DNA of 64,000 nt, taken from positions 1 through 64,000 of the forward strand of contig JASAMV010001180.1 in assembly GCA_030248065.1 (NCBI GenBank). The letters run 5' to 3'. Positions 998 to 60,348 of the stretch are shown here, piece after piece. The position numbers and the translations under genes were made by a program. Position 1 is the stretch's first letter, and each line of letters begins with the position of its first letter. Origin of the DNA: Rhynchonema sp. JSB1_4. Its lineage: Eukaryota > Nematoda > Chromadorea > Monhysterida > Xyalidae. The notes under the pieces were generated by a model. The model worked only from the letters and a program-made list of their open reading frames with translations. It was not told where the DNA came from and did no database searches.

Positions 998-1122
998 CCT
1001 CAATCCTCCTGGGAAAGTGGTCGCACGCGATCAACTATATTATTCCAGCTTTAGAGTGCATAATGGAGGAAAGTGCACGACCATGCACTTCTTATCAGCT
1101 GATAAGGACGCTAATAGGATAA

Positions 1123-1261
1123 TCACGCAAATGACACCACCCAAGGGACGTACTTTTATGTGGACTTGTTCAGACATGACCAGTGGGCAACAGTGCCAGA
1201 TGTGAAGATTTTCAACACCATGGGCGACCCGTTCGCGGCTGCTATTTGGCCAAAAATTTAA
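1123..1261 (+). pseudogene. Kelch gene remnant: terminal exon fragment only
   Basis: The last roughly 45 codons of the Kelch gene that is complete on the right arm (56725-59345) survive here, ending in the same residues (PFAAAIWPKI then stop at 1259-1261). Immediately upstream, 998-1109 matches the region just 5' of that gene's start on the right (about 59490-59607), including the palindrome cttatcagctgataag. Everything between has been lost, and about 13 bases at 1110-1122 match neither side. So a promoter-proximal piece now abuts the last exon. The signal peptide, the Cys-rich domain and most of the propeller are gone, so a functional product is unlikely. Confidence 0.8.
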
Positions 1262-1301
1262 TTGAAAACTATTCACATTGCTGGTTTAAAATTGTCCACC
1301 T

Positions 1302-1559
1302 TCAATAATATTTAAAGCGGCCTACAAGTATGTGACAAACTTCACCACGCATATTGTTTGAACGGTGTTCTTCTTTGCGGGGGAAGATATTTTTGTAATT
1401 TATCCGCGGATTCGGTTTTATCAAGTTTTGGGCTGATTGCCAGATCTCCAAGTCACGTTGTGATGTCACAGTATTTTTCAAATTTAGTGCCATAGCACGC
1501 TTTGTTTGCGTCCTTATTGGCACAACAACACGGCTTTTTGCCTCATTCGCAATACTCAT
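1302..1559 (-). CDS. 85-codon ORF, unknown (left copy)
   Basis: ATG-to-stop frame of 85 codons beginning MSIANEAKSRVVVPIRTQ. Its nucleotide sequence appears identical to 56427-56684. It converges on the Kelch remnant, ending about 40 bases from that stop. Composition is basic (Lys/Arg/Asn rich) with no signal peptide or recognised domain. Identity is uninformative about selection because the whole surrounding tract is near-identical between arms. It could be a small gene, a first exon or chance. Confidence 0.3.
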   Translation of the reverse strand: MSIANEAKSRVVVPIRTQTKRAMALNLKNTVTSQRDLEIWQSAQNLIKPNPRINYKNIFPRKEEHRSNNMRGEVCHILVGRFKYY

Positions 1560-2090
1560 ATTGAAGACACGCAGACCAAGTTTCGATAAAGTTTCACAAT
1601 TTCAGGACTGTTATCAATTTTTCAAACGATGACACTAATTTGCACTAATCACATCTGTAGTACCCGTTCTTGTGTAACCTGTGCGTCATATACCGGAAAT
1701 ATTTCGCAACCTTGCTGTCAATTACAATTAAGCTGCGCTGTTTAAACGATTTTGTGCGTCCATGAGAAAGAGAAGAAATGAGTCACACCAGCGCGTGTTT
1801 CGCTAAAATGGGTTGCACGCAATACGAAATTTTTCTCCACGAAACTCAAAGCAGGAGTTTTTTATAACCATTGCACTATCACTTAAAAACCAGTACCCAA
1901 CCAAACAGTTGCACATTTGTGTTCTGACATCGTTTAAAGGTGCTCTGCTTTTTGAGTATAAACGATAACCTCAATCTGGTGCTTTTGCAGCTCACGAACC
2001 CTGACCAAATTCACAATTAATGACGCATTACCTTCTCATCACGTGTGTTGCTGCGTTTTGCTGCTGCACGCAGACCAACGCTCAGGTTGT

Positions 2091-2268
2091 GGGCTAATAT
2101 TACAGTGGTCAACTCAAATATGGTCAAATCACTTCGTCAACTCACAGCAGCCCCGAGTGAGCGCGAGAAAATTAATAATACGTGGCATTCGGGGATGAAT
2201 GCACGCACGACCCTAATGTGAGCTGAGAGCGATTTGACCACCTATGTTGACCACTGCAATATTAGCCC
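2091..2268. mobile_element. MITE with GGGCTAATATT termini (left copy)
   Basis: Terminal inverted repeats: GGGCTAATATTACAGTGGTC at the left end matches the reverse complement of the right end with one mismatch, and similarity runs about 45 bases inward (the GGTCAAATC block near both ends). A short direct repeat, GGTTG, flanks it. The same insertion is at 55718-55895 on the right arm, so it predates the split of the arms. No coding capacity. Confidence 0.75.
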
Positions 2269-2639
2269 AGGTTGGTTATGAAATTATTGCGCGACTAATT
2301 TTATGATTTCGTGACATGCCTGATTTCAGTTTCGAAGCGACGTTGACCCATGCGAGTCACTGCGCGACGCTTGCCGCTCGGAACGCAGTCGTTTCTTGTG
2401 CAACGAGCACTCGCGATGCGTTCAGAACCCGAGCTCGATGGATCTGAAAGGTGCGCACGCAAAAGGGAAGGCCGAGGTCAATCCGTATGATCAAAGAATC
2501 CAATGACTTCGGTTGGCTTGAGGCCTGCATTGAAGCAAAAATACATAATCCAACCAAACGGCCAAACGATAAGGTGCACTTTGAGGGCGCAAGACCGGTG
2601 ACACGTTGCTGTTTCGGCCCCGTGTGACGCCAAGAATCC

Positions 2640-2850
2640 ATTTACAGAGCTGGTTCCACGAGGTCAACCCTTTCTGTCTGACGACATGACGTCACGTTTG
2701 TTGTAATTGGAGAGAGAACAGAGGCAGCAGGAGGAGGGACCCGATGGACGGGTGCATGCTGCTGAACGTCGACCGTCAGCGCTGTGGCCGAACGCTACGG
2801 TGCCGTACATGATACAATTCGCGATCGAGGCGTTAGTTTTGAGTTGAGGT
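2640..2850 (+). pseudogene. Astacin-like metalloprotease fragment with premature stop (left copy)
   Basis: On the right arm this exon reads through a propeptide-like segment into RRPSALWPNATVPYKI, which resembles the junction where astacin propeptides end and the mature protease begins (typically R-R-WPN-G-x-VPY). On the left, a CAA glutamine codon is TAA at 2704-2706, stopping the frame about 30 codons before that motif. A plausible splice acceptor lies just before ELVP. The zinc-binding HExxH exon was not found nearby, so even the right copy may be a remnant. Confidence 0.4.
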
Positions 2851-3590
2851 ATTATTACTCTGGAATGCCAAATACGGTAAGTCCTCTGGAGAGGCTAGTA
2901 TTTGGTGCATACACCGGATTTGAGATTTCAGAACAAAATAACGTCCCGAATAAGCCCCCGCTATGTACATACAAGCACATGAAGCATCGCTGAAAATGAG
3001 CATGGATGCATCAAAATCTTCCGAATAAGCCCCACTGGGACCTACTGTACATATGTACTGTATTTGGGGGAGGGATTCTCGGTACGGTAGAGTGACCTCT
3101 ACCTACGCTACACAGGACAACTGGACTTTCACAATCTAGTATACATAACCTGAATCTAATTGACACTTTGCCGTCGACCACTTCCGCTCATATCGACAAG
3201 ATCGGAGTTGAAATGATATCAATAGAATAAGATCGGAGCCGACGGAATTCGATGAATAGGAACATGTCAAGAGGCTCGAACGCAAGCTTTGCTAACAGTT
3301 TTGTCGTAAAATCATGTCGGCAAATAAAGTCGTCGAACAAGCAATAATACATGAACCGGAAATGAGCGCGAAAATAATACATGTGATTTGACGCGACAAA
3401 ATGAGGGGACATGATTTGACGACATTACTATAAGCCTGTAAACTGCTACCGACCATCGACGACAAACTGCTGCAGCAGCGTCACGGCCCCGAACTGGAGA
3501 TGCTGTCAATCAGCGCCTTTTATTATCCGAGACGCGTATTCAGCACCATTTTGAACAATTCAAACTTACACGTAAAAATATATGCCATTG
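2851..3590. other. Lectin-block outer flank, no gene
   Basis: No gene recognised. Homology with the right arm ends near 3095. About 3300-3430 is a degenerate relative of the foldback element at 15636-15747: both contain AAAGTCGTCGAACA, GAAATGAGCGCGAAAA and a following ACATTACTATAAGCC. Confidence 0.5.
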
Positions 3591-3814
3591 GGTGATATTT
3601 TCGAAACGGTGTAAAGGTCAGTTGGGTGTCAAGGTCGGTGGAAAGCTCGGTCGACAGCTCAGTGTGATCGGCCTCGGTGTAAACCTGAAACATTCCACGT
3701 TAACAACAGGCAATGTTTCACGTTTACACCGAGCTACGCCGACCGAGCTTTCGACCGAACTTTACACTGACCTTTACGCCCAACTGACCTTTACACCGTT
3801 TCGAAAATTCCACC
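3591..3814. mobile_element. 224-bp foldback MITE (GGTGATATTTTCG family), copy 1
   Basis: Almost the whole element is an inverted repeat: GGTGATATTTTCGAAACGG at one end and the reverse complement of GGTGGAATTTTCGAAACGG at the other, with a short loop near 3700. It is flanked by a perfect 5-bp target duplication CATTG (3586-3590 and 3815-3819). Other copies are at 6556-6778 and 42735-42958. The apparent reading frames through it are by-products of the repeat. Confidence 0.9.
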
Positions 3815-3844
3815 CATTGTTACAGATTCACTTTACCAAGAATA

Positions 3845-4150
3845 ATTTAGTGTCAATACACGGTACACGAACCAATAAACACAGCTTTCGGATGTTGATT
3901 TTGATTTGTGCTTTATTTTGCACCGTCAAACGCCCGAAGGCTGTGCATGTGGGAAATCCTGTTTAAAAACAATAAAACATATTGTTTATATGCTTATTAT
4001 TTAAAAACAAATAAAACAATGATTAAGATAACAGTTTCACGATAACAATGAAACACCATAGGACTGTCCAACAACATGAATACGTTGGATAGATAGAAAA
4101 TGACGACTTGACAATAATCCGTCGATTGGAGGAGGGATTGGAAGCGTCTC
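3845..4150. repeat. Lectin 3'-flank repeat unit, copy 1
   Basis: Similar to 10490-11290, 11556-12370 and the right-arm stretch 53315-54125. Shared markers are the AGTGTCAATACRCGGTACA motif, GTGGGAAATCCTG, AACAACATGAATACGTTGGA and CAATAATCCGTC. In each case a lectin last exon follows directly, so this is the flanking part of a duplicated lectin unit. Copy 1 is the most diverged. Confidence 0.75.
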
Positions 4151-4158
4151 AAGCCATC

Positions 4159-7100
4159 TCAGTAAATTTGACATATTGAAGCGTGGGGCTTGTCACATGA
4201 CCAGTCGTCGAGTCCGATGGCACCGCTGGCATAAAACACACCGCCGCAATCACCGCCATCGGGTTTCCCTGGTATGGTTTATGGGAAATCGGCCGAAATG
4301 GGGAATGGGGTATGGGAAATTTTTCGTTTTGGGAACATGCACCCCCTAATAAATAACCTTTTGATCTCGAGAAGCACACAAGCGTAGACCACGCTGCGCT
4401 TGAAATTGTCAAAAATCGCTTTTTTCTATAATTTTTAGACTATTTTTTGCACTTTTCGAAAATTTTTTAGGTCCCTTTTTCAGGGCCGCCTCGAGTATGG
4501 GAAATTTTTGAATTTTTGGAGCAACATTGGCTGGGTATGGCAAATTTTCGATTGCTCAACGGCACCACTTGGTGCTATACCTACATACGTAATAGTATTT
4601 CCTTTTTATGCAAGGCAAAGGAAACAGACGACCCCATGTTATAACTCAACTCCAGTTTGGGGTCGAGGTTTCAGAAAACTAATGAAAGAGATTAAGAATG
4701 TGTCCTTGTTAATCCAAGCACGACACACAGCAGCAAACATAGTGAAATGTTTCACTGACATGCTGGCAGCGCACACGTAGAAACATTGCTGCTGTTAGAT
4801 TCCACAGGCCAACCTTGACACGTTTTTGCCAGCTACATGTGATTGAGTGGATTTGTAATCTCGACCTCAACTAGAAGTTCAGTTATAACACGAGGCTTGT
4901 TTCTTTGGACCAAGAAAAACAGGAAACACTATATCTACTGTATATACCTGCGTGCCACGGCAAATACGTCGCAATGTGATCCAAGGACCCATCTCCTCTG
5001 AACCAGGCCCAAGAACCGCTGTATTTCTTCAAGCCAACATAAAACCAGGACTGCAATGGTTAGTAAGTGACACATTAGATTAAAACCTTACCTGAGAGGT
5101 TGAAAAAGATCAAAAATAAAACTGTTGGCGAGACCAACTCCCTCGCCCAAGGGCCGGTAAGCGCCATTGAGCCAGTCCAGGATCGCCAGCATCGTCTGCG
5201 AGTTTTCGATCCAGGCCAGGCGTCCGTTGTAATGCCTGATAAATCAAGGAAAATATTTGGGCGCATGAGAAATCATGGAAAATATTTGGGTTGCATGTAA
5301 TATACAGGGTTGGATTAAAAAAAATTTTTATTATCGAACTTTTTTTTAACTTTTTTGAATTCTTAAATTTTTTTTAAGATTTGCTTTTTTTATTCCGGAC
5401 CACAAAAATTTCGGTTCTCAATGTGAAAAATTTTCGAAATTTTTTGTAGGTATATTTGATTGTACTTGACAATATAGGAATAGTTGACACCGACCAGTTG
5501 CGTTCACAAACGGGCAGTAGCGAGGTGATAACGATGCGATGAGCGATGAGCCAGATAACGTGACAATTCGCGTTGGGGATAGTCTGTCCACCATACATAT
5601 GTACCCACATAATGTGGATTGTAGTATACAAAGTGAAGGCGTGTTACGGGAAAGGTAAAGGATTGGCGCATTTTTTAAGCAAAGTTACATGAAAACAGCT
5701 GCATAACCCGCGGTTTTGGAACGATAATTGTAGATTTCAAGCAGATTTGCTTGCTGGAAGAACTGAATGCGCACAAAATGACGGCTGCTTAGGTAGTTTA
5801 GTAGGGCCACGGACTGTCTAACGTTGTAATGACATTGTGCCGATACGAAATACAAGCGCCACAGGCGATTTTTTGAGAGAAACAAGCAGAAACATGCATA
5901 AAAACATGCATTTCGCAACAAAAAAAGGAGAAAATAATAAAAAAAAGTTGTGAAATAATAAAAAAAGTGAACTTACTTTTCAAATTTTTAAAAACCAAAA
6001 AAGTGGCGAACTTTTTTAAAATTTTTTTTTACTTTTTTTAACCCAATCCTGGTAATATAATGTTGAAAAATGTTTGCTCTCGCAAACAAACCAGTGGAAA
6101 ATGGCTCTCTCCGCTCATATAAAAGTTGAATACAAGAGGCAAACAAGTTTCTCAAGTCTAGTCGTGACAGTTTGCCTGGCTGAAATTCATTTCAAGTTGA
6201 AGATTCAGACGCAAGCCATATTTGTGGTGATGATTACCACTTTCCATTTTCAACTGGTTTGTTTGCGAGAGCAAACATTTTTCAACTTGTATCTCAATTT
6301 TATATCGAGTTCGCAAAAATCACTTTATTATCAAGTAATCTCAGTTTCATGATGACAGTAAGGCAGTCTACGGTTGGGAGGTTGTCTGGCAGCCCCCGAA
6401 TACCCGTGATACGCAAAGATCGTTGCGAGACCAATGCTCATCGCTGCTTATCGACACGTGTATTAGCGGCGCAAGCTGGAAATTGTCACCGTGCGCGTCG
6501 ATCACCAAAACTTGGAAACGTTGGGGTGGTGCTGATGCTAACACATAAGACATAGGGTGGAATTTTCGAAACGGTGTAAAGGTCAGTTGGGCGTAAAGGT
6601 CGGTGTAAAGTTCGGTCGAAAGCTCGGTCGGCGTAGACGGTGTAAACGTGAAACATTGCCTGTTATTAACGCGGAATGTTTCAAGTTTACACCGAGGTCT
6701 ATCACACTGAGCTGTCGACCGAGCTTTCCACCGACCTTTGCACCCAACTGACCTTTCCACCGTTTCGAAAATATCACCGATTCTGTAGATAAAAAAACAA
6801 ACATGGTCTCGGCACTATCCCTGCACATCAAAATTACTGTGGGTTACGGTATTCAGGGGCTGCCTGCAACCTCCCGCAGACTGCCTTTACCATTGGGCAG
6901 TGCACAGTCCAACCCCGACGAACCCAAAAATATGTCCTTGTTTATGTATACTCTGACAATACTTTTGGGAGAAACTTTTCAAACGCGTTACCTGATCCGT
7001 GAAGCACACGCAGCTCGCGCAGCCAGCTGAGTTTCGTTGCATTTCGCAAATCACTACGTAGACTTGTGTGTTGAGTGGTTGTGACTGCTGCAACTAATGC

Positions 7101-8847
7101 ATGCATAATGCGCTTTACGGATCAGGCAGCGCGTTTGAAAAGTTTCTCTCAAAAGAATTGTCATAGTATATTTCGTTGCCTGATTAATGAAGGCGTCCCG
7201 TGTGCAGCGCCTACAGCACAGCATACAGCCAGGCAGTGTAGTTCCTGGGGGGCCCCCCCTCGGGTACGCTATCTCCCCCTCGGGTGGTACACTATCCCCC
7301 TATCTCCCCCTCCGGGTACACTATCTCCCCCAATTTTTGCTACAATGGCCATTTTTAGGCCTAAAATGGGCATTTTTAGGCCTAAAATGTGTGATTTTCA
7401 GGTCAATGTTCTCAAAAGTCGCCAAAATACCCTTTTTATGAAGAATTTTTTCCAAAAGGGGCAAAAATAGGTCAAATTTTCAACCTCAAAAAGTGACTTT
7501 TTCCCGAATTTGGGTCTTCCCCCATCTTCCCCCCTAGGGGGTACACTATCTCCCCCTCCGAAAAAAACGGGGGGTCCGCTATCTCCCCCTCCGGACCGAA
7601 CTAGACTGCAGCCAGGCAACAGACACACGTATAAGTACAGCGTGAGATGACGTCATGCGGTGTGTATGTCAACGCAATTAGCAACACACAACGCAGAAAC
7701 GTGAGTGAGACCACATACATAATCTGAAACTTGATGTTTCATGCCATATCGAGCTAAAAGAATCTCAAATTTGAATTCAGTGTGGTCGAAAACATCTGTG
7801 TGCAAGTTTTCATTACAATTGGAGCATTTTTCAACATTGACCTCTGGTCTCGATCCAGGTTTCCGGGCTCAGATCATGACCTACAACGAAACGGTTGACA
7901 CCATTATATTTATCGATCCCAAAAACCCCATACCGCACATATTATTTGTGGCGTCAGATGCCTCTATTTATCAGGGACCAAGTTTTGATAGAAGCAGAAG
8001 GAGAAAATGAAGAAGAGACTTTATGGACCCTGTACTGATTGAGCCCAAATTTACCACACACATGCGGCTTAAATGGATATAACTAGCGTAGGAGTTATTT
8101 ATCAATTGAAGCTTCCTAGGTATTTTTACGAGCGAAAGAATATTTCACACCCGGCACTAATTCACTCGAGCCATATTTGAGACATGCGCTACCGCGCATG
8201 CCTCGATGAGAACTGAACGCCAAAATATGCCTGTGGGCACATAGCACATTTATATATTATGACCAGAATATTGTTTACAATGCTGTTATCTTGGGGGCAC
8301 ATATGTATACATATGCGTATGTACAACGTATACATAGGTACGGGATTAGTAACTAAATATGACACACAAAACACAGTTGGCCCGTGATCCATCCCAGTCG
8401 CGATATTGGCCGCCCCAATGAAGATCCACCAAAACGTAGCAATGGCCATTATAGTCGAGTGCTGGCGATCCTTTGGCGGCGTCCCCGCAGTCTACAAGCA
8501 GATGAGCAATGAATGAGCAATGCATGGCGGGGCCAAACGGTTGCACAGCCACATAAATGCTGCAGTGCCCGATGTGTTTAACCCCGGAATGGTCCAGCTG
8601 TTCACGGTTAACCCTGTTCACAACTGAACACTTCAACCTTACACACAAATAATGTGACTGCTGAATCATTCAAAATTTAGAAGCAAAAGCGAATTTAAGG
8701 AAAATCACAACACTCACTCAACGGCTTTGTCGTGTTGCGTCTGTTGGTTGGTGGTGCGCCGCCCTCGTGCGCATGGTCACTGGTGGCGGCGACGACCACG
8801 ACGCAGGCCAATGTTAGGGGCGACAACACGAACAGGGTTCTGAACAT
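4159..8847 (-). CDS. Secreted C-type lectin A (five exons, left arm only)
   Basis: Exon 1 (about 8720-8847) encodes a signal peptide, MFRTLFVLSPLTLACVVVVA. Exon 2 (about 8380-8500) gives DYNGHCYVLVD and DWDGSRANC. Exon 3 (about 5125-5235) gives GRLAWIENSQTMLAILDWLN. Exon 4 (about 4955-5057) gives WAWFRGDGS with a WLP-like YLPWH. Exon 5 (4159-4270) gives GGDCGGVFYASGAIGLDD, CDKPHASICQIY and stop. The WIE, WLP/YLP, GDC and final C-QIY pattern with four conserved Cys is a C-type lectin-like fold. The EPN/WND calcium-sugar signature reads KPD and LDD, so sugar specificity is uncertain. Intron 2 is enlarged to about 3.1 kb by transposons and an inverted duplicate. All recognised exons are open. 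It is a paralogue of lectin B and absent from the right arm. Confidence 0.8.
5305..6051. mobile_element. hAT-like non-autonomous element, copy 1 (in lectin A intron)
   Basis: Ends CAGGGTTGGATTAAAAAA and its inverted counterpart (TAACCCAATCCTG). It is flanked by a perfect 8-bp target duplication GTAATATA (5297-5304 and 6052-6059). An 8-bp duplication with CAGGG-type ends indicates the hAT superfamily. The interior is A/T-homopolymer rich and has no transposase frame. It lies inside intron 2 of lectin A. Confidence 0.85.
6061..6287. mobile_element. Foldback element (TTGAAAAATGTTTGCTC family), shortened copy
   Basis: Inverted termini TTGAAAAATGTTTGCTCTCG and its reverse complement, with the AAACAAACCAG block inside both. 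It is a shorter relative of 14609-14978 and 50081-50449 and lacks most of one interior arm. It begins one base after the target duplication of the hAT-like element at 5305-6051. Confidence 0.75.
6556..6778. mobile_element. Foldback MITE (GGTGATATTTTCG family), copy 2
   Basis: Same near-complete inverted repeat as 3591-3814. The ends are GGTGGAATTTTCGAAACGG and the complement of GGTGATATTTTCGAAACGG, in reversed orientation. The flanking 5-mers do not match, so the target duplication has decayed or been lost. Confidence 0.85.
6951..7166. mobile_element. TA-flanked MITE (CTCTGACAAT family), copy 1
   Basis: Ends CTCTGACAATACTTTTGGGA and inverted TTTCTCTCAAAAGAATTGTC, then TACGGATCAGGCA-type subterminal repeats. 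It is bounded by TA dinucleotides (6949-6950, 7167-7168), as for Tc1/mariner-type insertions. The second copy is at 41994-42165. Confidence 0.8.
7240..7610. repeat. CTATCTCCCCCTC-bounded A/T-core repeat
   Basis: Both ends carry repeated GTACACTATCTCCCCCTC motifs, in direct orientation at the left and again at the right. The core contains two copies of ATTTTTAGGCCTAAAATG. A related C-rich, TTTTTAG-containing element is at about 30745-30960. I cannot assign a superfamily. Confidence 0.4.
7741..8010 (+). CDS. Repeat-borne ORF 'MPYRAKRISNLNSV', diverged copy
   Basis: Open for 89 codons. It aligns over about 70 residues with the 100-codon frames at 14105-14407 (minus) and 50651-50953 (plus), sharing MPYRAKRISNLNSV, KTSVCKFS, QLEHFST and DPKNP. 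Substitutions between copies are often conservative (I/V, L/I), which hints at past coding constraint. The end has shifted frame relative to the other copies. The family is unknown; it lies within the duplicated lectin flank. Confidence 0.35.
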   Translation: MPYRAKRISNLNSVWSKTSVCKFSLQLEHFSTLTSGLDPGFRAQIMTYNETVDTIIFIDPKNPIPHILFVASDASIYQGPSFDRSRRRK

Positions 8848-8969
8848 TCTATCCACCAGTTAAAAGTATTATTGCTAAATCGCAACTAAGGCCTCAAAGG
8901 ATGATCAGAATAGAGCAAATGAAGTTGCTATCATTGTGCTTCGCGATTTTATGCAACTGGTTTCGCACG

Positions 8970-10485
<1,516 letters not shown>

Positions 10486-10489
10486 CACT

Positions 10490-11290
10490 TAACGAAGATG
10501 ACTTAGTGTCAATACGCGGTACATGAACCAATAAAACACGTCTTTCGGATTTTGATCTCGATTTGTGTTTTTGCGCCTTCATTGCCAGGTGTCAATGCAA
10601 ACGCGCTATGCATGTGGGAAATCCTGCTAAACAAAATAAGATAATAATGAAACACCAGGACTGTCCAACAACATGCATACGTTGGATGGATGGAAAGTGT
10701 CCACAAATATAATTTAATAATTATGATAGTGATTGATGCCTCCTTGATCTTATAACTATTCAGATATACAGATTTGATCAAATCAAAACGAAACCATCAC
10801 CAAAGTCAAGCAGCCTTTATGAGCGCGAGGAACATGTATATGTATACAGCAGGCGGCCGTTTTTCTTGAAAATTTTTTACCTAAATATAGCCCTCGGCGC
10901 TCTATTCGGAAACGTGCCTGCAGGAAGGTTTTTGAAAGTTCCTGAACTGATTGCCAACATCACCGATTGTTATCACGCAACTACTTTATTGGCATTCCAA
11001 TGCATGTTTTCATGAAACATTTGAACATTCTTGATGAGAAAAAGACCGATATGAGGCCACTTTTAATATTGAAAATCAATGATCACAGGATCAATTTTTT
11101 CAAACTTTTTGCCCCAAATACAGACCCCAAGGGCTCTGTTCGGAAACGTTTCCGAATAAAACCCTCGGAGGCTCTATTCGGTGGGGTTTATATGGAAAAC
11201 TACGGTAGGGAATGACACTGCGGCTGGGTTAACGACATGACAATAATCCGTCAATTGGAAGAGGGATTGGAAGCGCTCAAACCATCTCAG
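10490..11290. repeat. Lectin 3'-flank tandem repeat unit, copy 2
   Basis: Near-identical to 11556-12370 with an offset of 1066 bases: ACTTAGTGTCAATACGCGG starts at 10501 and again at 11567, and both units run to CAATAATCCGTCAATTGG. Each leads into a lectin last exon. The right arm has one unit (53315-54125), so one copy is a left-arm duplication. Confidence 0.9.
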
Positions 11291-11403
11291 TAAATTTGAC
11301 ATATTGAAGCGTGGAAGTCGACACAATTGCTGTCGTCGAGTCCGAGGGCACCGTAGGAATACCACACACCACCGCAATCACCGCCCTTGGGTTCACCTGG
11401 TAT
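11290..11403 (-). pseudogene. Orphan C-type lectin last exon
   Basis: Encodes GEPKGGDCGGVWYSYGALGL, DDSNCVDFHASICQIY and stop, clearly a lectin exon 5 with a CAG acceptor just before it. No exons 1-4 of its own lie between it and the second tail unit; the next sequence upstream in its reading direction is the duplicated 3'-flank of lectin B. It carries EPK where lectin B has EPS. It could be an alternative terminal exon of lectin B or simply a broken copy. Confidence 0.75.
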
Positions 11404-11555
11404 GGAGTATGGGGATTTAATTCGAAAAGTAACCCTCAATATTTCGCGATTTAGCGAGCTAGAAGACGCGGTTTTTTGCACTCGGCGGCCTGTCGAGGTC
11501 ATCTTTCGATTGCACCCAATAAAACATGGGGTTAAGAGACGTTAGACACACCCTT

Positions 11556-12370
11556 TAACGAAGATGACTTAGTGTCAATACGCGGTACATGAACCAATAA
11601 AACACGTCTTTCGGATTTTGATCTCGATTTGTGTTTTTGCGCCTTCATTGCCAGGTGTCAATGCAAACGCGCTATGCATGTGGGAAATCCTGCTAAACAA
11701 AATAAAATAATGATTAAGGTAACAGTTTTACGATAATAATGAAACACCAGGACAGCCAACAACATGAATACGTTGGATGGATGGAAAGTGTCCACAAATA
11801 TAATTTAATAATTATGATAGTGATTGATGCCTCCTTGATCTTATAACTATTCAGATATACAGATTTGATCAAATCAAAACGAAACCATCACCAAACTCAA
11901 GCAGCCTTTATGAGCGCGAGGAACGTATGCATACAGCAGGCGGCCGTTTTTATTGAAAATTTTTTACCTAAATATAGCCCTCGGCGCTCTATTCGGAAAC
12001 GTGCCTGCAGGAAGGTTTTTTGAAAGTTCTTGAACTGATTGCCAACATCACCGATTGTTATCACGCAACTACTTTATAGGCATTCCAATGCATGTTTTAA
12101 TGAAACATTTGAACAGTCTTGATGAGAAAAAGACCGATATGAGGCCACTTTTAATGGTGAAAAATCAATGATCACAGGATCAATTTTTTCAAACTTTTTG
12201 CCCCAAATACAGACCCCAAGGGCTCTGTTCGGAAACGTTTCCGAATAAAACCCTCGGAGGCTCTATTCGGTGGGGTTTATATGGAAAACTACGGTAGGGA
12301 ATGACACTGCGGCTGAGTCAACGACATGACAATAATCCGTCAATTGGAGGAGGGATTGGAAGCGCTCAAA
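11556..12370. repeat. Lectin 3'-flank tandem repeat unit, copy 3
   Basis: Tandem partner of 10490-11290. It differs by point changes and small indels and is the copy adjoining the intact lectin B gene. Confidence 0.9.
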
Positions 12371-12375
12371 CCATC

Positions 12376-13803
12376 TCAGTAAATTTGACATATTGAACCG
12401 TGGAGCGGGTCACATTTGTTGTCGTCCAGTCCGAGGGCACCGCCGTAATACCACAGACCACCGCAATCACCGCCCGAGGGTTCCCCTGGTGTAGAATGTG
12501 GGAAATTTTTCGTTTCGGGAACAAACACCCTTAATAAACAACTTTTTGATCTCGAGAAGCTCAGAGATTGGACCATGCTTCGCTTATGAAATGTCAAAAA
12601 TCGCTTGCTTGCGTAAGAAACGCTGGTTTCTTTCATTTTTAGACAATCTATGGCACTTTCAAAAATTTTGAGGTCACTTTTTCAGAACCCCCTCGGGTAT
12701 GGGGGACATTTTTGAATTTTTGGAGCAACGCGCCTCCTGGTTATGGGACATTTTTGATTTTTAGGTGTATATGTATGGAAGATGTGCCCAAATTTGGGCT
12801 GGGTACGGGAAATTTTCGATTGTTCAACGACACCACTGGTGCCATACCTATATATACATTATTTATGTACTGTACATACCTGGGTGCCACGGCAACCACG
12901 TCGCAAAGTGATCCACGGACCCATCTCCTCTGAACCAGGCCCAAGCACCGAGGTAGCTCCTCAAGCCAACATAAGCCCAGAACTGCAAGGGTCAGTTGTT
13001 AAGTGACACATTAATGAGGAAAGATTAAAAGATTGCCTGAGAGGTGTTGAAAAGGATCAAAGATAAAGACCAACTCCCTCGCCCAACGGCCGCCAAGCGT
13101 AATTGAGCCAGTCCAGAATCGCCACCATGGTCTGCGAGTCCTCGATCCAAGCCAGGCGTCCGTTGTATTGCCTGATATATCAAGGAAAACATTTGGGTGC
13201 ATGAGAAATCAAGGAAAATAGTTCGGTTGCATGTGTACGTGAGAAATGACTGCCATAGTATGCCTGTAGGCGCGCAGAACATTATGTACACTGTTAGGTA
13301 CGGGAATAGTAACTAAAGATGACACACAAAACACAGTTTTCCCGCGATCCATCCCAGCTGTGAAATTGCTGGCCGGCCCATCTCGGATCCACCATGACGT
13401 AGCAATGGCCATTATAGTCGAGTGCTGGCGATCCTTTGGCGGCGTCCGCGCAGTCTACAAGCAGGTGAGCAATGATGCATGGCCGGGCCAAACGGTTGCA
13501 CAGTGTACGAATCAGTTCGTTCATGAAGCAAATGCTATATGTTGCACTGCCAGATGTGTTTAAGCTCAGTAGTCCAGCTCTTCACAACTGAACACTTCAA
13601 CCTTACGCACAAATAATGTCACTGCTAAAATCGTTCAAAATTTAGAAGCAAAAGAGAATTTAAAGGAAACCATAACACTCACTCAACGACTTTGTGGTGT
13701 TGAGTCCGGGTGATGCGCTGCCCTCATGTGTATGGTCACTTGTGGCTACGACCACGACGCAGGCCAATGCCAGGGGCAACAACACGGGCAGGGTGTTGAA
13801 CAT
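12376..13803 (-). CDS. Secreted C-type lectin B (five exons, left copy)
   Basis: Exon 1 begins at 13803 with a hydrophobic signal peptide (MFNTLPVLLPLALACVVVVA). Exon 2 (about 13332-13460) has SPALDYNGHCYVMVD and SWDGSRENC. Exon 3 has GRLAWIEDSQTMVAILDWLN. Exon 4 (about 12883-12990) has WAWFRGDGSVDHFATWLPWH. Exon 5 (12376-12490) has GEPSGGDCGGLWYYGGALGL, LDDNKCDPLHGSICQIY and stop. The Cys pattern, WIE, WLPWHPGEP and GDC motifs mark a C-type lectin-like domain of normal size with little else after the signal, suggesting a small secreted lectin. The EPN-equivalent is EPS and WND is LDD, so calcium-dependent mannose binding is not assured. Exon 2 is identical in protein to the right-arm copy. 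Confidence 0.85.
12490..12840. mobile_element. hAT-type MITE (CAGTGGTGTCGTTG family) in lectin B intron 4, left copy
   Basis: Repeated TATGGGAAATTTTTGA blocks and an end CAACGACACCACTGG match the intact element at 40815-41230. The opposite end has no CAGTGG terminus; instead the MITE-like ACCAGGGGAACCC runs straight into lectin exon 5. Similar tracts occupy the same intron of lectin A (4262-4570) and of the right copy (52855-53200). Confidence 0.65.
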
Positions 13804-14104
13804 TCTATCCACTGGTCAAAAGTATTAATTGCTTAATGTCAACTCGCAACTAAAACGTCAAAAGATGATCAAATCAGTATAGAGCAAAATGAAGTTGGTA
13901 TCATTGTGCTTCGCGATTTTATCGGGGCATGTGCGGTAGCGCATGTCCCAAACATGGCTCGAGTGAATTGTAAAATTTTCTTTAGCTCGTAAAAATTCCT
14001 AGGAAGCTTCAATTGATCAATACCTTACATACAGTTATATCCGCTTATGCTACATGGTGTGTGCAAAACTTGGGTGTTTAAACATCAGTAAAGGGAGTCT
14101 AATG

Positions 14105-14407
14105 TTACGAGACCAAACGTTGCGAAAAAAGTGCGCAGAATTCTTCTTCTGCTTCTATCAAAACTTTGGTCCCTGATAAATAGAAGCATCTTGATGGTAC
14201 CAATAACATGTGCGGTACGGGGTTTTTGGGGTCGACAAATTTAATGGTGTCAAGCGTTTTATTGTAGGTCATGATTAGAGCCCGGAAACCTTGATCGAGT
14301 CCAGAACTGAATGTTGAAAAATGCTCCAATTGTGGTGAAAACTTGCACACGGATGTTTTCAACAACACTGAATTCAAATTTGAGATTCGTTTAGCTCGAT
14401 ATGGCAT
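14105..14407 (-). CDS. Repeat-borne ORF 'MPYRAKRISNLNSV' (left arm)
   Basis: 100 codons from ATG to stop, almost identical to 50651-50953 and related to 7741-8010. It contains LDQGFRALIMTYNKTLDTIK and DPKNPVPHMLL and ends in an acidic then hydrophobic stretch. It lies about 300 bases upstream of lectin B, in the same strand direction. No known domain is recognised. Confidence 0.35.
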   Translation of the reverse strand: MPYRAKRISNLNSVLLKTSVCKFSPQLEHFSTFSSGLDQGFRALIMTYNKTLDTIKFVDPKNPVPHMLLVPSRCFYLSGTKVLIEAEEEFCALFSQRLVS

Positions 14408-14608
14408 GAAACATTAAGTTTTTCTGCGTTGTGTGTTGCAAATGCGTTGGCACAGGCGACGCCTTAATTACTCAGGCAACGACATAACTAAGGACATATT
14501 TTTGGGTTCGTCGAGGTCGGACTGCGGAATACCCATTCGTACTGTCATATGGCACTGAGATTACTTGATCAAGTGATTTTTGCCAACTCGATGTAAAAAT
14601 GAGATACC

Positions 14609-14978
14609 CTTTGAAAAACGTTTGCTCTGGCAAAGAAACCAGCGGAAATGTGGCTCTCACCGTTCATACACAGGTTGAACACAAGAGGCAAACAAGTTTC
14701 TCAAGTCAAATCGAGACAGTTTGCCTGACTGAAGTTTAATTAATGTTGAAGATTCAGACCCAAGCCATATTTGTGGTAATCCAAGGATTTCACACTTGCA
14801 GATGATTACCACAAATATCGCTTGGGTCCGAATCTTTAACTTGAAATGAAGTTCAGTCAGGCATAAACTGTCTCGATTAGACTTGAGAAACTTCTTTGCC
14901 TCTTGTATTAAACTTTTATGTGAATGGTGAGAGCCATATTTCCACTGGTTTGTTTGCCGGAGCAAAGATTTTTCAAGT
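14609..14978. mobile_element. Long foldback element (left arm copy)
   Basis: A 370-base near-complete inverted repeat. TTTGAAAAACGTTTGCTCTG at the start pairs with the end, and interior blocks AAGAGGCAAACAAGTTTCTC and AGATTCAGACCCAAGCCATA recur inverted around a loop near 14790. The right-arm equivalent is 50081-50449. Non-coding. Confidence 0.85.
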
Positions 14979-15635
14979 TGTACAAACTTCCTTAACGTGA
15001 TAAGTGTGTGTGTGCGCCGTAGCAGCTGACGGGCGTCCAAGATAGCAAATCAGCCGATAAGATTCAACCGATGAACAGCGCGACGCCAAAATAATTCAAG
15101 ACAACGAAGAACGTCGACTATGACTCTAATCGGTTTTACTTGCTATTTCCGGCGCGCGTCAGCTGTTTCAAAGCACACGAACATGCGGCGTAAAAAGTGG
15201 GCGATAACCCACGTGCCCAGTCTTCCACGCCACGTCAGAGCAACATATGGCACGATAATGCAGTTTGAGGGATTGGTGGTGCCGGGTGAGCTGATAGTTC
15301 GTACACTTACCAATTCAACATCAATGCAGATTCGCTGATTTTTCTTCGTGTGCACGCCCGCATGAATGTGTTTGATTCGATCTTTTAAGCATCAGGGCAT
15401 GTCAACCGAGCAGCAAACAACGCACACCACAGACCAATTACACAGGTATCTACTATAGGACCAGTTTGAGGCAGCCTCATGTGAATCAGATCTTGTTCTT
15501 CTTTTCTCTCTGCGGCGCAAGGAAGTTGCCAGCCCAATATTGGGATAATTATGCAATACCAATCACTGCACAAATAAATAAAACTGGTGAGCAAGTGCAA
15601 AATCGATAGTACGGCTAACGGTTTTCTGCTCGTCA

Positions 15636-15747
15636 AATCATCTCGTCAAAGAAAGTCGTCGAACACATGAGTCCCAAATGAGCGCGAAAACTAAGTATAC
15701 ATACTGTACAGTACATGTGTTCGACAACTTTACTTGACGAGATGATT
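15636..15747. mobile_element. Small foldback element AATCATCTCGTCAA (left copy)
   Basis: Inverted ends AATCATCTCGTCAAAGAAAG and the complement of AATCATCTCGTCAAGTAAAG, with TCGTCGAACACATG inside both. The same element is at 49306-49414 on the right arm. Confidence 0.75.
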
Positions 15748-15770
15748 AGACCACATTACTATAAGCCCCG

Positions 15771-15974
15771 ATGGCAGCAGCAGCTATTAGCGAGTCGACA
15801 GCGAACATTGCTCCATATACGGGTCCAATGGAAACGGCCAGCCTGAATCCAACAGGATACAACGCACAAGTGAGACCGATGGGCGATAAGTGCATCTATG
15901 GAAAAAATCGAAATTTTGGCATCGACCAGCCAGTGGTGGAGCTCTCGAGTTTTTTGGCATCAGGCCAGGCCTGA
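15771..15974 (+). CDS. Possible small ORF, intact only on the left arm
   Basis: 67 codons starting MAAAAISESTANIAPYTGPM and containing YNAQVRPMGDKCIYGKNRNF. No domain recognised. On the right arm the same frame (minus strand, from about 49283) is cut after GYNAQ by the hAT-like element at 48481-49182. If this is a gene, the right copy is knocked out; if not, it is a harmless insertion in spacer. Confidence 0.25.
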   Translation: MAAAAISESTANIAPYTGPMETASLNPTGYNAQVRPMGDKCIYGKNRNFGIDQPVVELSSFLASGQA

Positions 15975-16401
15975 GTGGACGACAAGAACTGATATGACGA
16001 CGCATATGAGTTGACAATATGACAGTGCGAACGCTGCATTATACTACTATTTTGCACTTCGTCCAAAGCCACCTGGAAGGTGTTGACCGAGAACGCGCGA
16101 TGCTGCCGGTTCTAACCGCGACCAGCTGAGTGCCCCGGTTATATCCGCGACACCCAAACATGATTTGACATTCGACGCACTGCTGTGCACCCTCATGATT
16201 TTGCGTGCCCTCTCTGCTGAACCGTTCGATAGAGTGACCGACACTAGAGTAAGAATATCACGCGTGATCCTCTTGTATTCTACATCCATTCTGGTATTTG
16301 ATACGGATAAACCTTAGTGGTTTAATTGGCGGACGTCTGCGAGGTACGATCCTCGTGGCTCCGCGCCTGCCAAGCGCGTTACTGTTTGCGGCCCAAGAAA
16401 G

Positions 16402-17079
16402 ATGAAGGATTATTCGTGGCGTGAGAAAGTGGCCGAGGCCAAGAAAAAAAATTGGAAAAGAATTTATTTGGATGGGCAAGACAGTTATGAATTGTTCAAG
16501 GCATCTGAAGAGTGGAGCAAGTCAATGCCATACGATGATGACTTGTGCAAAGAGTGGGTCTGCGCGATGTACGATGCGGCCAATTATGGAGCGTGGCAAC
16601 TTCTGGACCGTGTCGTTTATTTGATTGAAATGGAGGAGAGAAAGAAAGAAAGAGAAGAATGGGTGAAAGAAGTGAAGAGATTGATGGAACCGGCGCCGAA
16701 AGTTGCGAAGTTTTTGACCGGCAAACCGTTGGTGCCTGTCAGGTTGTGGCAGATAAAAGAAGAAAAGGTTGAGTCCACCCAGATGACATCGGCTGAGGTA
16801 CCTGAAGAAACCACCCCTGTGTCCCCAATTCCCAACGCCACCCCTGACCCATGTGTCGTGTTGTTCGATGTCGCCTGTGAAGAGCAGATGTCGGACACGA
16901 CACCGACGTTGCGGCCGATGAAGTATGAAGAGGAGGAAATTCAATGGATTGTATGGCCGAGCGTCGACAAGGCAAAGAAAATGAAGTTGAAGGGAAAGAG
17001 GAAGGAAACGAAAAAGACGGAGGTAAAGAAAAAGAAGAAGAAAAGAAAAGGAAGAATAGCAAGGGACCAGAGTAGGTGA
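16402..17079 (+). CDS. Lys/Glu-rich 225-codon ORF, left-arm specific
   Basis: The longest uninterrupted frame in the window. The N-terminal part is MKDYSWREKVAEAKKKNWKR followed by a Trp-containing acidic segment. The middle is Pro/Thr-rich, and the C-terminus is a strongly basic Lys-rich tail. No known domain is recognised. It lies in a 1.1-kb left-only block (about 16265-17330) bounded by homologous sequence, so it arrived by insertion or was lost from the right. The stop overlaps a possible GTG-initiated frame by four bases (GTGA at 17076-17079); that frame is open to 17273 and is also very basic. A gag-like or other ORF1 fragment of a mobile element is one possibility. Confidence 0.4.
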   Translation: MKDYSWREKVAEAKKKNWKRIYLDGQDSYELFKASEEWSKSMPYDDDLCKEWVCAMYDAANYGAWQLLDRVVYLIEMEERKKEREEWVKEVKRLMEPAPKVAKFLTGKPLVPVRLWQIKEEKVESTQMTSAEVPEETTPVSPIPNATPDPCVVLFDVACEEQMSDTTPTLRPMKYEEEEIQWIVWPSVDKAKKMKLKGKRKETKKTEVKKKKKKRKGRIARDQSR

Positions 17080-21715: not shown

Positions 21716-21723
21716 GTCTAGGC

Positions 21724-41230: not shown

Positions 41231-41236
41231 ATTTAG

Positions 41237-42958: not shown

Positions 42959-44362
42959 CGAAGCACGGAATGCACAACTTCAATGTCGACCGGCACCAAA
43001 CCAGTGGTGCCCCAGGCCATCGTTAGTGCGCAACCTTTTGACAGCTGTTATTTGGTGATGTTTTTGTTTCCCTTTCCAATTATTTTGACAGTGGACTGGA
43101 GAACAGCATTCCAAGCGAATAACCACGGAACGTTTTCATTTTTTGCTCAAATCTGTTTATCTGAGTATTATTGTGTTATATTTGTTGTCGAAAAATTGCA
43201 ATGCAAAATCAAAACATCACACAAAATCCACAACAAACAATAACTGTCCGATTGCGTCTGAGTGATAAAAAAATCGTCACCTTTATCAACACGTTATAAT
43301 CTCCGTTTGGATCATGGGTATCAACGATCAAAATCGAACACGAGGCGTGTCTCGTGTCTGTGTCTCGCGCGAAGTGCGAAAATTTTCCGATTTTCTCTTT
43401 CTTTCTTTTCGGCGCGGTGACAAAAACCAATCGTTGAAACGCACTATTCTGTATTGTTGCAGTCTCACAAACCATGACCTAGCCGTTGTGTGATGAAGTG
43501 ACTTTATTGTATTGTTTCAGAGATATTTGGTGGAGGTTAGAACTTTTCTCTGGTGTGGCTGAATAAAACATCAGTCTTTATCACGAAGAGACTGCATTCA
43601 GGAGACTGTATCCGCTTATTGGTTAGAAGTTGAGAGATGCTTCATGCGATGCGGGGAAGGAACAACGCTGTTTGATCTACTGTATATTTCAAGTCCGAGT
43701 CTAATCAAGCCCATGTGTTGGTCCGGGGATACACTGCCGAAGGGTGGCTGCGTATGGATATATTTTAGTGAAACGTGTTACAACAACACACGTGTGCACC
43801 ACTGCAAGTGCATTGTGCAGTGGATTTTACACTGTTCGGCATAAGGTTTGGTTTAGTACACGTGTCCTTGATTATTGTGTGTGCATGTGCACATTTTGGG
43901 CTTTGGTTTTATTTCCATGGATCTGCTTAAAGTGGGTCCGGCTGTGCTCTTTCTGTCTTTCAACGTATTTGTAAATAATGGTGCCCATCAATTTTCGATT
44001 GCAGGCACGCCTGGACTGCACATGTACACAAACACGCAAGTTCAACATTTCATGCAAAAGGATGTGCGGTTTACCTGTGTTGGCTTGAATATTTTGGAAA
44101 CATATCAAAAGATTGTGCAATTTTATCGATTTGTGCATGCACATGGGCACAAACAATTGCATTGTTTCATGTCCAAGCACTTTTTGTATCAGTCTGCAGG
44201 TTTTTTTCTTCTGCAGACGCAGCCGTTTTTGTTATATTGATAACATTGTTTTTTAGTGGAGTTAATTGACTTATTCACCTAAAATAAGCAACATGTATCG
44301 AATCCAGTTATGCATTAACCAAGAAATTTGCCCAACTTTTTCAGCGAAACTTAGCCGCAACC

Positions 44363-51433: not shown

Positions 51434-51528
51434 TACCAACTTCATTTTGCTCTATACTGATTTGATCATCTTTTGACGTTTTAGTTGCGAGTTGACATAG
51501 CAATTAATACTTTTAATCAGTGGATAGA

Positions 51529-56426: not shown

Positions 56427-56684
56427 ATGAGTATTGCGAATGAGGCAAAAAGCCGTGTTGTTGTGCCAATAAGGACGCAAACAAAGCGTGCTATGGCACT
56501 AAATTTGAAAAATACTGTGACATCACAACGTGACTTGGAGATCTGGCAATCAGCCCAAAACTTGATAAAACCGAATCCGCGGATAAATTACAAAAATATC
56601 TTCCCCCGCAAAGAAGAACACCGTTCAAACAATATGCGTGGTGAAGTTTGTCACATACTTGTAGGCCGCTTTAAATATTATTGA
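56427..56684 (+). CDS. 85-codon ORF, unknown (right copy)
   Basis: Same 85-residue product as 1302-1559 and apparently the same nucleotides. It converges on the Kelch gene, whose stop is at 56725-56727. No domain recognised. Confidence 0.3.
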   Translation: MSIANEAKSRVVVPIRTQTKRAMALNLKNTVTSQRDLEIWQSAQNLIKPNPRINYKNIFPRKEEHRSNNMRGEVCHILVGRFKYY

Positions 56685-56724
56685 AGGTGGACAATTTTAA
56701 ACCAGCAATCTGAATAGTTTTCAA

Positions 56725-59345
56725 TTAAATTTTTGGCCAAATAGCAGCCGCGAACGGGTCGCCCATGGTGTTGAAAATCTTCACATCTGGCACTGTTGCC
56801 CACTGGTCATGTCTGAACAAGTCCACATAAAAGTACGTCCCTTGGGTGGTGTCATTTGCGTGAATGTAGCCCATGCCACCAAACATCACCAACTGATCGC
56901 CGGGCGCCACAAACATGTTGAAGTTGATCAAGCGATGGGTCATGGGTGCCATGGCGTGCCAAGCGTTGTCTTTGATTGAGTACCGCTCGCACGATGCAAG
57001 AATGTTGTTGACTGACCCGACGCTCATGCCACCGCAGACCTGAAGCAGAAAATACATATAACAAAAAAACTAACACTGATAATATTTTTCGCCCTGCAAT
57101 TTTTACGTGAACGACGAACGACACGGTTTGAGCACCGAATACGGCCGTTCATCTGCTCAACGCTGTGTAACTCTGCATGGTCAATATTAGTGACTAAAAA
57201 CGGCTTTTTGACACCAGCACCACAAACAAGGTGGTCGACTGTGTACCACATCCCACAATTCGACATACCACAAACGTGTCTGCGTGTCGCACCATGGCGT
57301 GCGACCGACGTGGCTGGCGCATTGCTGCCGAATCCGACCAATTGTCCTTCTCGTACGAGTACACCATCAAACGATTCGATATGGCGCCGTTGCAGTTCAG
57401 GCCGCCGCTGATGTAGATCGAACCCTGATGAAAGTGACATTCACGCGCATGAACATCTGTTTGTGTGGCTGACACAATGTTGAATGGTACGCCAATGTGC
57501 TTATTGGCTGCCCGTTTCGATCGATTCCTGCGCTTTCGCAGACGGTCGGTGCACCAGGACATCGTCAGTGCGAATACACCAGGTGGCCACGTTATCCCAA
57601 GTGTTGCATAGAATGGACACGAACAATTGCACTCTTGTTGCAAAGCGTTTTGCTGGCGTTGTGTCACAAGTCAACAACACAAACGTGTGTACCGACCCCA
57701 TATTCCACGCCGGCTGCGGCAACAATACAGTAATCCGTTGGCAGTGGACGCAGATTCCACGTGGCATTCGGCTCAAGCGTGCTGATGAATTCACAACTTG
57801 TTGAACAAGGCTGCTGTACTTGCGAGTCACATCCACAAGTGTACAATAGATTGTAACCATGGGTACTGGTAAAGTTGAGGTATCCGACGATGGCTGCAAT
57901 TTAAAACAGGTCTGGATAGTTTTTGCATAATTTTTGTTGATATTCAAAAGCTTTCTGCTGATTCCAACTACTAACACAGATAGCGCCAGGCGGCCGTCGG
58001 GCTCATTTCTTGCCAACTGTTTTTGGATAGTAGCTCGACACCGCGACCTGCATAAGATTAGACGACACTGTGACATCATCGGTGTCTGTAATTGGCCGCA
58101 ATGATTCGACCAATCAACGGTCAGCTGGACCGTCCCAAAACAGTGTTGTGGAATCCAGGGGGATACTGTAATATCATTGCTCGTTGCACTTTACACAGTA
58201 TCGTAAATTTCTAGTTTCGTTGCCTCATGCATTCTTACAGACGCAGGGAAACTCCCGTTTGAAGTCGAAGCAGCCCGTTTGAAGTCGAAGCAGGCAACAA
58301 GCTCAACACAATCCACGCAGCTGGCTCGTTTGCGTTTCGGATGTTTCAGTCGCACAAGCTGTGTGTGTCAGTTGCGTGGCTTCTTGACTGTGTGCCTGCT
58401 TCGACTTCAAACGGGAGTTCCTGCGTCTGCAAAAATGCATGAGGCAGCGAAATTAGATGATTTAACGCCAAGATACCCGGAATCGCTCTTTGTTGATCTG
58501 TGAAATCAAATCACTTTTTTCCTGAACGATTTGACGTCAATTTAAAAATGCAAAGCGTGTGCTTCCCCTGACCCTGATGACACGTTGAAAACACAAGATT
58601 ATCTGCAGCTGGACAGACTAGCCATCAACGCTATTTTGGCTCGCTGTATTGAGATTTAGTGATATACTTCCAAGACTTTCAAGACTTTGAGATTTGGAGA
58701 TAAACATTTCCAAGATTTTGCAATTTGGAGATAAATCATTGAAATCTATACTACTAAAACAGGAAGACGTAAGTCTGTCTGTGTGTGGCCCCCTCCCTCG
58801 GAGGGGCGGACGGGTCAATTTTGACGGGCAGCTTTGGGTATGCTAACGGGTCTTCGGGGGGGGGGGGGTAGGTGGCCCGGCACGGGCGCGGCGCTGTAGC
58901 CGGGCCGTAGGCACGGGTCCCGGCTAGTGAAATATATAAGCTGCGCAAAAAGTTTGCCGTCGAAATCCGCACGCATACCATTGCTGTCATAAGCCCCGAT
59001 TGAATAGATGTCTTCACCAACGACAAGCATTTGTGGCTGGAAAGCCCCATCCGGCAGGGGAATGCTGGCATCCTTCTTCAGGCTGACGTGACCTTGGTTG
59101 TTCACTGATAGCACTTGAGCGATCGAACGAAGTTCGAAGAACATGATGTCAACTGAAGAAGACATGGGGTTTTCGAAAGAAAAAAGTGTCGAGTGTTACG
59201 ATCACACACAACGGGCAGAATAAGAATCTTTACCTGACTCTGTTTCTTCGTTAGTTTGGTTTAGCATTGGCGATGGCAGACAATTGGCAATAACAGTCAA
59301 CGAAAATAGCAATTCGAATATGATGAGACCGCGCCGGAAAATCAT
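56725..59345 (-). CDS. Secreted Kelch-repeat protein 1 (complete)
   Basis: Start at 59345 with a signal-like N-terminus (MIFRRGLIIFELLFSLTVIA). Exon 2 (from about 59152 down) has VDIMFFELRSIAQVL and QPQMLVVGEDIYSIGAYDSN. A Cys-rich exon (about 57905 to 57700) has CGCDSQVQQPCSTSCEF and DYCIVAAAGVEYG. A Kelch exon follows with GSIYISGGLNCNGAISNRLM, YSYEKDNW and RRSHAMV. The last exon (57041-56725) has VCGGMSVGSVNNILASCERY and GDQLVMFGGMGYI and ends AAIWPKI. The repeated GG, YxxxxxxW and VMFGG patterns indicate Kelch beta-propeller blades. A secreted Kelch with a Cys cluster is unlike the usual cytosolic BTB-Kelch adaptors. Exon order and split sites match the paralogue at 60349-62237. Confidence 0.8.
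58205..58455. mobile_element. Foldback element in Kelch 1 intron
   Basis: TTTCGTTGCCTCATGCAT at the left and ATGCATGAGGCAGCGAAA at the right are inverted partners, followed inward by CAGACGCAGG and CCCGTTTGAAGTCGAAGCAG on both sides. The CCCGTTTGAAGTCGAAGCAG block is also duplicated in tandem on the left side. Confidence 0.75.
58745..58927. mobile_element. Helitron-like non-autonomous element in Kelch 1 intron
   Basis: Begins TCTATACTACTAAAACAGG after an A and ends GTCCCGGCTAG before a T, fitting the Helitron rules (5' TC, 3' CTRR, insertion between A and T). The last 40 bases can form GC-rich hairpins. It contains a run of about 15 G. It has no terminal inverted repeat. The element lies directly after exon 2, so it may set or disturb that exon's splice donor. 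Confidence 0.45.
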
Positions 59346-60348
59346 TTTGTATCCAGAATCGTTTTTTTTATATCCAGTCGAGGTGTGAAACGTTCAAAGG
59401 TGATCTGCGGTTGACTTTCTCTTTGTGTCAATATGAAGCAAAGTGCATAAAAACCGACACGCGAAGTTTTAAAACATCAACAACCGCAAAATGGAGGTCC
59501 TTATCAGCTGATAAGAAGTGCATGGTCGTGCACTTTCCTCCATTATGCACTCTAAAGCTGGAATAATATAGTTGATCGCGTGCGACCACTTTCCCAGGAG
59601 GATTGCACGCTGCTGCACTGCTCTTTGTTTTTGCAGTGTCCGGGCGTTTACATGACAGGTCCCCACTTATTGAATAAAATAGGAGGGAAAAAGTCCACCT
59701 TTGTCAAGAAACGTGAAGAAACCAAACTGGCTCTATCTTGGGCGCGACCAGAAAGAACCGCGACCACCTTGTCCGCATGAAGATAACAGTAGTTCATGTG
59801 TAGCGTGTGGAAGTTAAACAACGTGAATTAATAATAGCCTTTTATGTACTTCTTTATGGGTTTCTGGGCGTCGTTCAAATACCATTTGTGATCAAAACTG
59901 AAACTTTGAAATTTTACCAAAAAAGTTCAGCTGTTTCAAATTTTGGGCGCAACGACCATTTTTTGGGCGCGGCGACCACACTCGAATACATACTTACGGA
60001 TCATCCCTACTAATTTGAAAGTGCGGTTTTCGGATTGTTCTAAACGTGTTGCGTCTATTGGTATAAACAGGCCTCGATTGTTTCACACGTCCTGTAGGTA
60101 ATACGTGCAAACATGCGCTGGTCGCCGGTAGTGGTCGCCAGTCCCACTATAATCCCACCCTAATGGTGGCTTTTCGCGCATGTGCATTGTTCTTCCCACG
60201 GATGATGACTTTGATGCCGACCCGCATGTGCTTTTGGTACATGTAAGCTTTGTAACACTATTATCGTTCAACGCACTGCTTTTTTGATCGGTGTTTGATA
60301 ACGTATTCGTTTCATAGACACCCTAAATAGGCGTTTCGTCTCAGAAAT
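59346..60348. promoter_or_regulatory. Shared upstream region of divergent Kelch pair
   Basis: Separates the starts of two Kelch genes transcribed away from each other. It contains the 16-base palindrome cttatcagctgataag (about 59501-59516) and, adjacent, an inverted GTGCATGGTCGTGCAC. The part to 59607 is conserved on the left arm (998-1109), where it abuts the Kelch remnant. Regulatory function is inferred from position only. Confidence 0.4.

Follow-up and report, generated by a model that had tools for sequence, protein, structure and literature searches.

Does the genome of the nematode Rhynchonema sp. JSB1_4 (Chromadorea, Xyalidae) contain a giant gene-bearing palindrome, or was this structure created when the genome was assembled? 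The question is raised by contig JASAMV010001180.1 of GenBank assembly GCA_030248065.1, which comprises 203.9 Mb in 5,747 contigs. The stretch of DNA that we analysed (the window) is 64,000 nucleotides long and is this contig (64,023 bp) less 23 bases, so the palindrome fills nearly the entire contig. The contig is referred to here as C743; C309, C819, C2208, C3445 and similar labels denote other contigs of the same assembly. On comparing these sequences we are highly confident that the palindrome arose during assembly, through the mistaken head-to-head joining of two haplotypes, A and B, of a single ordinary locus within intron 2 of an endophilin gene. The inverted pattern is present in the contig and is very likely absent from the chromosome.

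Inverted arms around a single spacer

A blastn comparison of the window with its own minus strand gave 17 inverted blocks of 82.8-100% identity, extending from an outermost pair at 1001-1109/59605-59497 to an innermost pair at 30974-31669/33856-33127. Most of the blocks had E = 0, which far exceeds chance. They define a left arm of 30,669 bp (1001-31669, minus strand), which may be read as haplotype B reversed, and a right arm of 26,479 bp (33127-59605, plus strand), which may be read as haplotype A; the spacer between them (31670-33126, 1,457 bp) occurs once in the contig. The palindrome of the preliminary description, with arms of about 27-31 kb and a spacer of 1.46 kb, was thus recovered as a feature of the contig. 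The outermost block is a 109-bp piece that is identical in both arms and flanked by unrelated stretches, and the main left-arm homology starts at 1123, opposite 56863. Positions 1-1000, at the left end of the contig, contain no inverted block at E <= 1e-10; at that threshold the self-comparison links them neither to the arms nor to the right flank.

Of the 30.7 kb of the left arm, the blocks together cover approximately 20.4 kb; the remainder consists of insertions or unalignable sequence. Their order is collinear except for left-arm blocks 9916-11413 and 11570-12874, whose right-arm matches overlap owing to a local tandem copy in the left arm. Over 26.2-30.7 kb, 500-bp bins show 1.4-8.5% substitutions between the arms, and there are large insertions besides. 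The preliminary description took such differences as leaning towards a real palindrome, on the ground that the arms of a plain hairpin read would be identical. We agree with the ground, but arms drawn from two haplotypes would also differ, and a mis-join is the better supported reading.

Linear order in neighbouring contigs

Sequence from the palindrome centre and from the innermost 2 kb of the arm matched one other place in the assembly, on C309, apart from an A-rich stretch that matched many contigs. C309 (35,698 bp) carries, in order, 32.4 kb of other sequence, repeats aside (called X here), the spacer, the arm in the orientation of the right arm, and the end of the contig; the left-arm arrangement is not there. 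The preliminary description named continuation into other sequence at the spacer edges as a sign of a haplotype mis-join. At 31710, where the spacer begins to match C309 (31710-33126, plus strand, against C309:32401-33724), C309 continues into X and not into the left arm. In this X-spacer-arm order the spacer would be part of endophilin intron 2.

We aligned the left arm, the right arm and C309 three ways and counted clean columns. Within C309:33750-34349, 26 sites were shared with the left arm alone and 15 with the right arm alone, while past 34350 the counts were 89 sites for the right arm alone and four for the left arm alone. Against window positions 33857-35108, the end of C309 had five mismatches in 1,211 ungapped columns, plus three longer indels and one small one. 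C309 is thus of left-arm type first and of right-arm type at its end, so that two sequence types suffice and a third is not needed. Across the spacer, the differences from C309 in clean columns were 7.4, 10.4 and 13.0% from left to right; a haplotype switch inside the spacer was considered, and this gradient does not decide the matter.

At the outer end, the right flank of the window (59689-64000, plus strand) has a second copy of 96% identity at C819:1-4269, in the same orientation and beginning at the first base of that contig. The 109-bp outermost piece of the left-arm homology stops opposite 59605, 84 bp before the C819 copy starts, and right-arm positions 56864-59496 had no second copy apart from repeats. 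C819 is likely to be the continuation of the left arm's haplotype. With C309 before the arm and C819 after it, the neighbours of one arm therefore run in ordinary linear order elsewhere. A haplotype mis-join had been offered as an option in the preliminary description, and the continuation of C309 into X at 31710 and the flank copy on C819 now supply contig-level evidence for it.

An endophilin gene divided at the centre

We located endophilin by tblastn, using a human endophilin as the query and setting the exon ends from splice sites. Exon 1 lies at C309:31853-31897 and exon 2 at C309:32013-32081, approximately 320 bp to the left of the spacer. These two exons were found on C309 only, and both arms of the palindrome carry later exons alone: eight exons, called 3-10, at 35367-39149 (plus strand) in the right arm and at 24741-29327 (minus strand) in the left. 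The splice sites fit, and exon 2 of C309 leads into exon 3 of the arm in frame. Because exons 1 and 2 lie in X, the centre of the palindrome falls inside intron 2 and both arm copies are headless. Named matches to the protein were led by nematodes (Romanomermis, 62% identity; Plectus, 60%; Ascaris, 59%), which, with the (TTAGGC)n arrays of the assembly, points to a nematode that has no close relative among the named matches.

The arms differ at six sites across the eight exons and all six differences are synonymous. The comparison covered 173.7 synonymous and 618.3 nonsynonymous sites, and an entirely synonymous outcome would arise by chance with a probability of approximately 1e-4 if there were no constraint. 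Such clean exons would be unexpected in headless copies and would be expected of two alleles, each joined to a head.

The join and its noise

The join itself consists of 40 AT-rich bases (31670-31709) that align to neither arm nor C309. It lies in a patch, approximately 30907-32190, in which homopolymers, one-sided deletions and A-rich insertions give the appearance of raw reads. Three of the four homopolymer runs of at least 12 bases in the window fall within 30907-32129, and a scan of the window found a single 60-mer with at least 42 A or T of one kind, at 32101. Compared with C309, the inner 700 bp of the left arm (696 columns) has 14 small deletions, one small insertion and six longer deletions; the inner stretch of the right arm (718 columns) has one small deletion and three small insertions, with three longer deletions and two longer insertions. 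Two insertions consisting largely of A, 36 and 56 bases long, lie in the left part of the spacer. The patch looks like unpolished sequence from a single read, and the noise pattern did not tell PacBio from Nanopore.

An assembler or scaffolder might also have crossed between haplotypes at an ambiguous node of the graph or at an inverted repeat that both share, with no chimeric read involved. Self-inverted repeats are common here, and the switch of sequence type near the end of C309 is a sign of tangled haplotypes. The join, however, is 40 bases of filler in a noisy patch and not a shared repeat, and mostly one-sided indels also mark two other palindromes of the assembly; we consider this route very unlikely.

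Those palindromes are among the large inverted copies, approximately 97-99% identical, present on three other contigs. C309:1-11385 is a palindrome free of spacer, and in one of its arms the inner 2 kb has 23 small deletions against four small insertions, compared with nine against five in the outer 3.7 kb. C2208 holds a palindrome at 29501-39262 with arms that are 98.5% identical and a spacer of 1,353 bp; the inner 2 kb of one arm has ten small insertions against one deletion and the next 2.2 kb is without a small indel. The small indels are thus mostly one-sided near the centres of both. In C3445 (33,119 bp), 999-4191 and 29392-32587 are inverted copies of 97% identity. C743, C309, C2208 and C3445 came to light because they match the window and are not a random sample, so they show that such structures recur and not how frequent they are. 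Arrays of (TTAGGC)n also lie inside contigs (C2608, C1578 and C1860, for example), with 227 forward and 148 reverse five-repeat matches, and some contigs hold arrays in both orientations.

Copy number and the case for a true duplication

A real inverted duplication on one chromosome would also place two arms around a spacer. Fold-back repair would have copied the arm around a loop of 1.3 kb, the arms would then have diverged with patchy gene conversion, and C309 would be the other, unduplicated haplotype. The contig is contiguous across the structure, the arms are diverged and inverted contigs recur in the assembly, all of which would be compatible with such an event. Copy number is compatible with it too. 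Three 1.5-kb control pieces from other contigs were searched against the assembly: those from C3939 and C2072 had no second copy besides repeat matches (in one of these searches among the best 40 of 1,199 candidates), and that from C1271 had a partner in C1589, in three pieces at 81-97% (best 40 of 326 candidates). Two of the three controls being single copy, the assembly is largely collapsed at those places, and a stretch that is present twice could therefore be a true duplication. For the arms, no further full copy of 1100-3100, 17372-22750 or 26000-31700 was found besides repeats among the best 40 candidates scored; 11570-15870 has relatives at 88-89% on C2208 and C2528. The argument that each arm occurs exactly twice, and that the arms are hence alleles, is weakened by the controls and is kept as support only.

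Against a real duplication stand both arm copies of endophilin, which lack exons 1 and 2 and yet differ only synonymously; the end of C309, which equals the right arm at 1,206 of 1,211 columns and is not a third type; the second copy of the right flank on C819; and the position of the join within noise. Together these leave such a duplication very unlikely. We give still less credence to a true fold-back chromosome, in which one homologue would have lost everything beyond endophilin intron 2 and been mirrored around the 1.3-kb loop. Were it true, the animal would carry two headless and still conserved endophilin bodies, and fold-backs would be common in a nematode genome.

How two haplotypes may have been joined

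In the head-to-head mis-join that we favour, both haplotypes probably run X, endophilin exons 1 and 2, spacer, arm and flank. Haplotype A would be made up of the right arm of C743 with the spacer before it and the right flank after it; haplotype B would begin with C309, continue through the left arm in reverse and end in C819. A single long read, inverted and chimeric or folded back, probably seeded the join; its strand would have run inward along the arm, switched strand, restarted approximately 1.3 kb further in and run outward, leaving the loop between the switch points once, as the spacer. A displaced 3' end that re-primes on the opposite strand slightly further along would produce just such an inverted join with the loop kept once. 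Whole-genome amplification or fold-back during library preparation may have given rise to the read. This scheme sets the inverted arms, the order in C309 and C819, the missing exons and the patch of noise, all of which were observed, beside a diploid locus, which we infer.

Several points weigh against this reading. The inner 700 bp of the left arm differ from C309 by 3.4-12% substitutions and not by indels alone, and a genuine palindrome might also degrade read quality at its centre, so that noise at the join is support and not proof. The 15 inner sites that group C309 with the right arm are joined by ten more at the extreme inner edge, in a noisy part of the left arm. Either haplotype, A or B, may have supplied the left part of the spacer. 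X beside the spacer (C309:30001-32400) had no second copy in the assembly, both candidates having been scored, so the X of haplotype A is either unseen or collapsed. Haplotype B has a gap of approximately 2.8 kb between the main left-arm homology and C819, and the largely collapsed state of the assembly leaves room for true duplication.

Comparison with known systems

In one amplified Escherichia coli cell, 406 of 475 chimeras were reported to be inverted, and in 337 of these the joined segments lay within 10 kb of each other (Lasken and Stockwell 2007, PMC1855051). An inverted chimera of multiple displacement amplification (MDA) would be expected to have 2-21 nt of complementarity at the junction. 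The join in C743 likewise brings segments together in opposite orientation, and their ends lie approximately 1.3 kb apart on C309, within that 10-kb range. It differs in that the 40 bases of filler at 31670-31709 hide any complementarity and in that its arms would represent two haplotypes, which requires an assembly step beyond the read artefact; amplification of the DNA by phi29 polymerase would also have to be assumed. In five amplified tardigrade samples, 25.6-38.5% of the matched mitochondrial reads were reported as palindromic, and a circular mitogenome was obtained with Flye for two of the five individuals (PMC13265396). Fold-back reads of long-read libraries are described as turning onto their own opposite strand and as able to tangle assembly graphs (PMC12870357). 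The spacer-free palindrome at C309:1-11385 resembles these more closely than does C743. A symmetric fold-back would leave the spacer on both sides, and in C743 it occurs once.

In the Adineta vaga assembly of 2013, palindromes formed by homologous blocks were interpreted as a sign of asexuality; a subsequent study reports 23 palindromes recovered in that assembly and none detected in A. ricciae (PMC5916493). Artificial palindromes can result from erroneous scaffolding, as a survey of parthenogens warns (PMC7953838), and the present case appears to belong under that warning. As in A. vaga, homologous gene blocks are inverted on one scaffold and can be read as an allelic palindrome; unlike there, neighbouring contigs give the linear order at both ends of one arm.

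Sex-chromosome palindromes are genuine, and gene conversion keeps their arms nearly identical. Gene conversion in palindromes is also stated in the parthenogen survey (PMC7953838). C743 shares with them long, inverted, gene-bearing arms and a short spacer, but its arms are far from near-identical, with blocks at 82.8-100% and large insertions. The order in C309 and C819 speaks against both arms lying on one chromosome, whether as a sex-chromosome palindrome or as an asexual allelic one.

Gene content and repeats of the arms

All genes had been said to be mirrored in the two arms, and for a tRNA-Glu pair, one per arm, and for the BAR and SH3 exons of endophilin this held; Pfam called the SH3 domain in the right arm. 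The gene names fared unevenly. Kelch repeats, sought on the right side, were found by Pfam in the distal right arm and, below the Pfam cut-off, in the right flank. Six of the ten open reading frames tested gave no Pfam family, and lectin B and astacin were not confirmed. The supposed FKBP gene showed just EF-hand signals below the cut-off and a KDEL end.

Left-arm stretch 3090-9915 has no collinear match in the right arm and holds diverged copies (68-85%), in the same orientation, of parts of the 10.5-15.4 kb region; they look like the remains of an old tandem duplication that the right arm does not show. A younger tandem copy of the left arm, single in the right, is formed by 10489-11413 and 11555-12502, which are 93% identical. 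An insertion of approximately 800 bp confined to the left arm (20921-21715) has dozens of copies in the assembly at 89-99% and is therefore a young dispersed repeat. A nearly self-inverted repeat of approximately 226 bp occurs in three copies at approximately 95% (3590-3815, 6555-6778 and 42734-42959). A part of the left arm that has no counterpart in the right arm carries, at 16318-17076, an open frame of 253 codons with no Pfam family.

Implications

Two diverged haplotypes can mimic a gene-bearing palindrome with plausibly aged arms. Three checks are available that do not require reads: the location of the first exons of the central gene, the contigs that continue each end of an arm, and any concentration of small indels on one side of the centre. 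If the other inverted contigs share the cause proposed here, gene counts and claims of duplication drawn from this assembly would be inflated. The case is most likely a caution about reported palindromes and not new biology.

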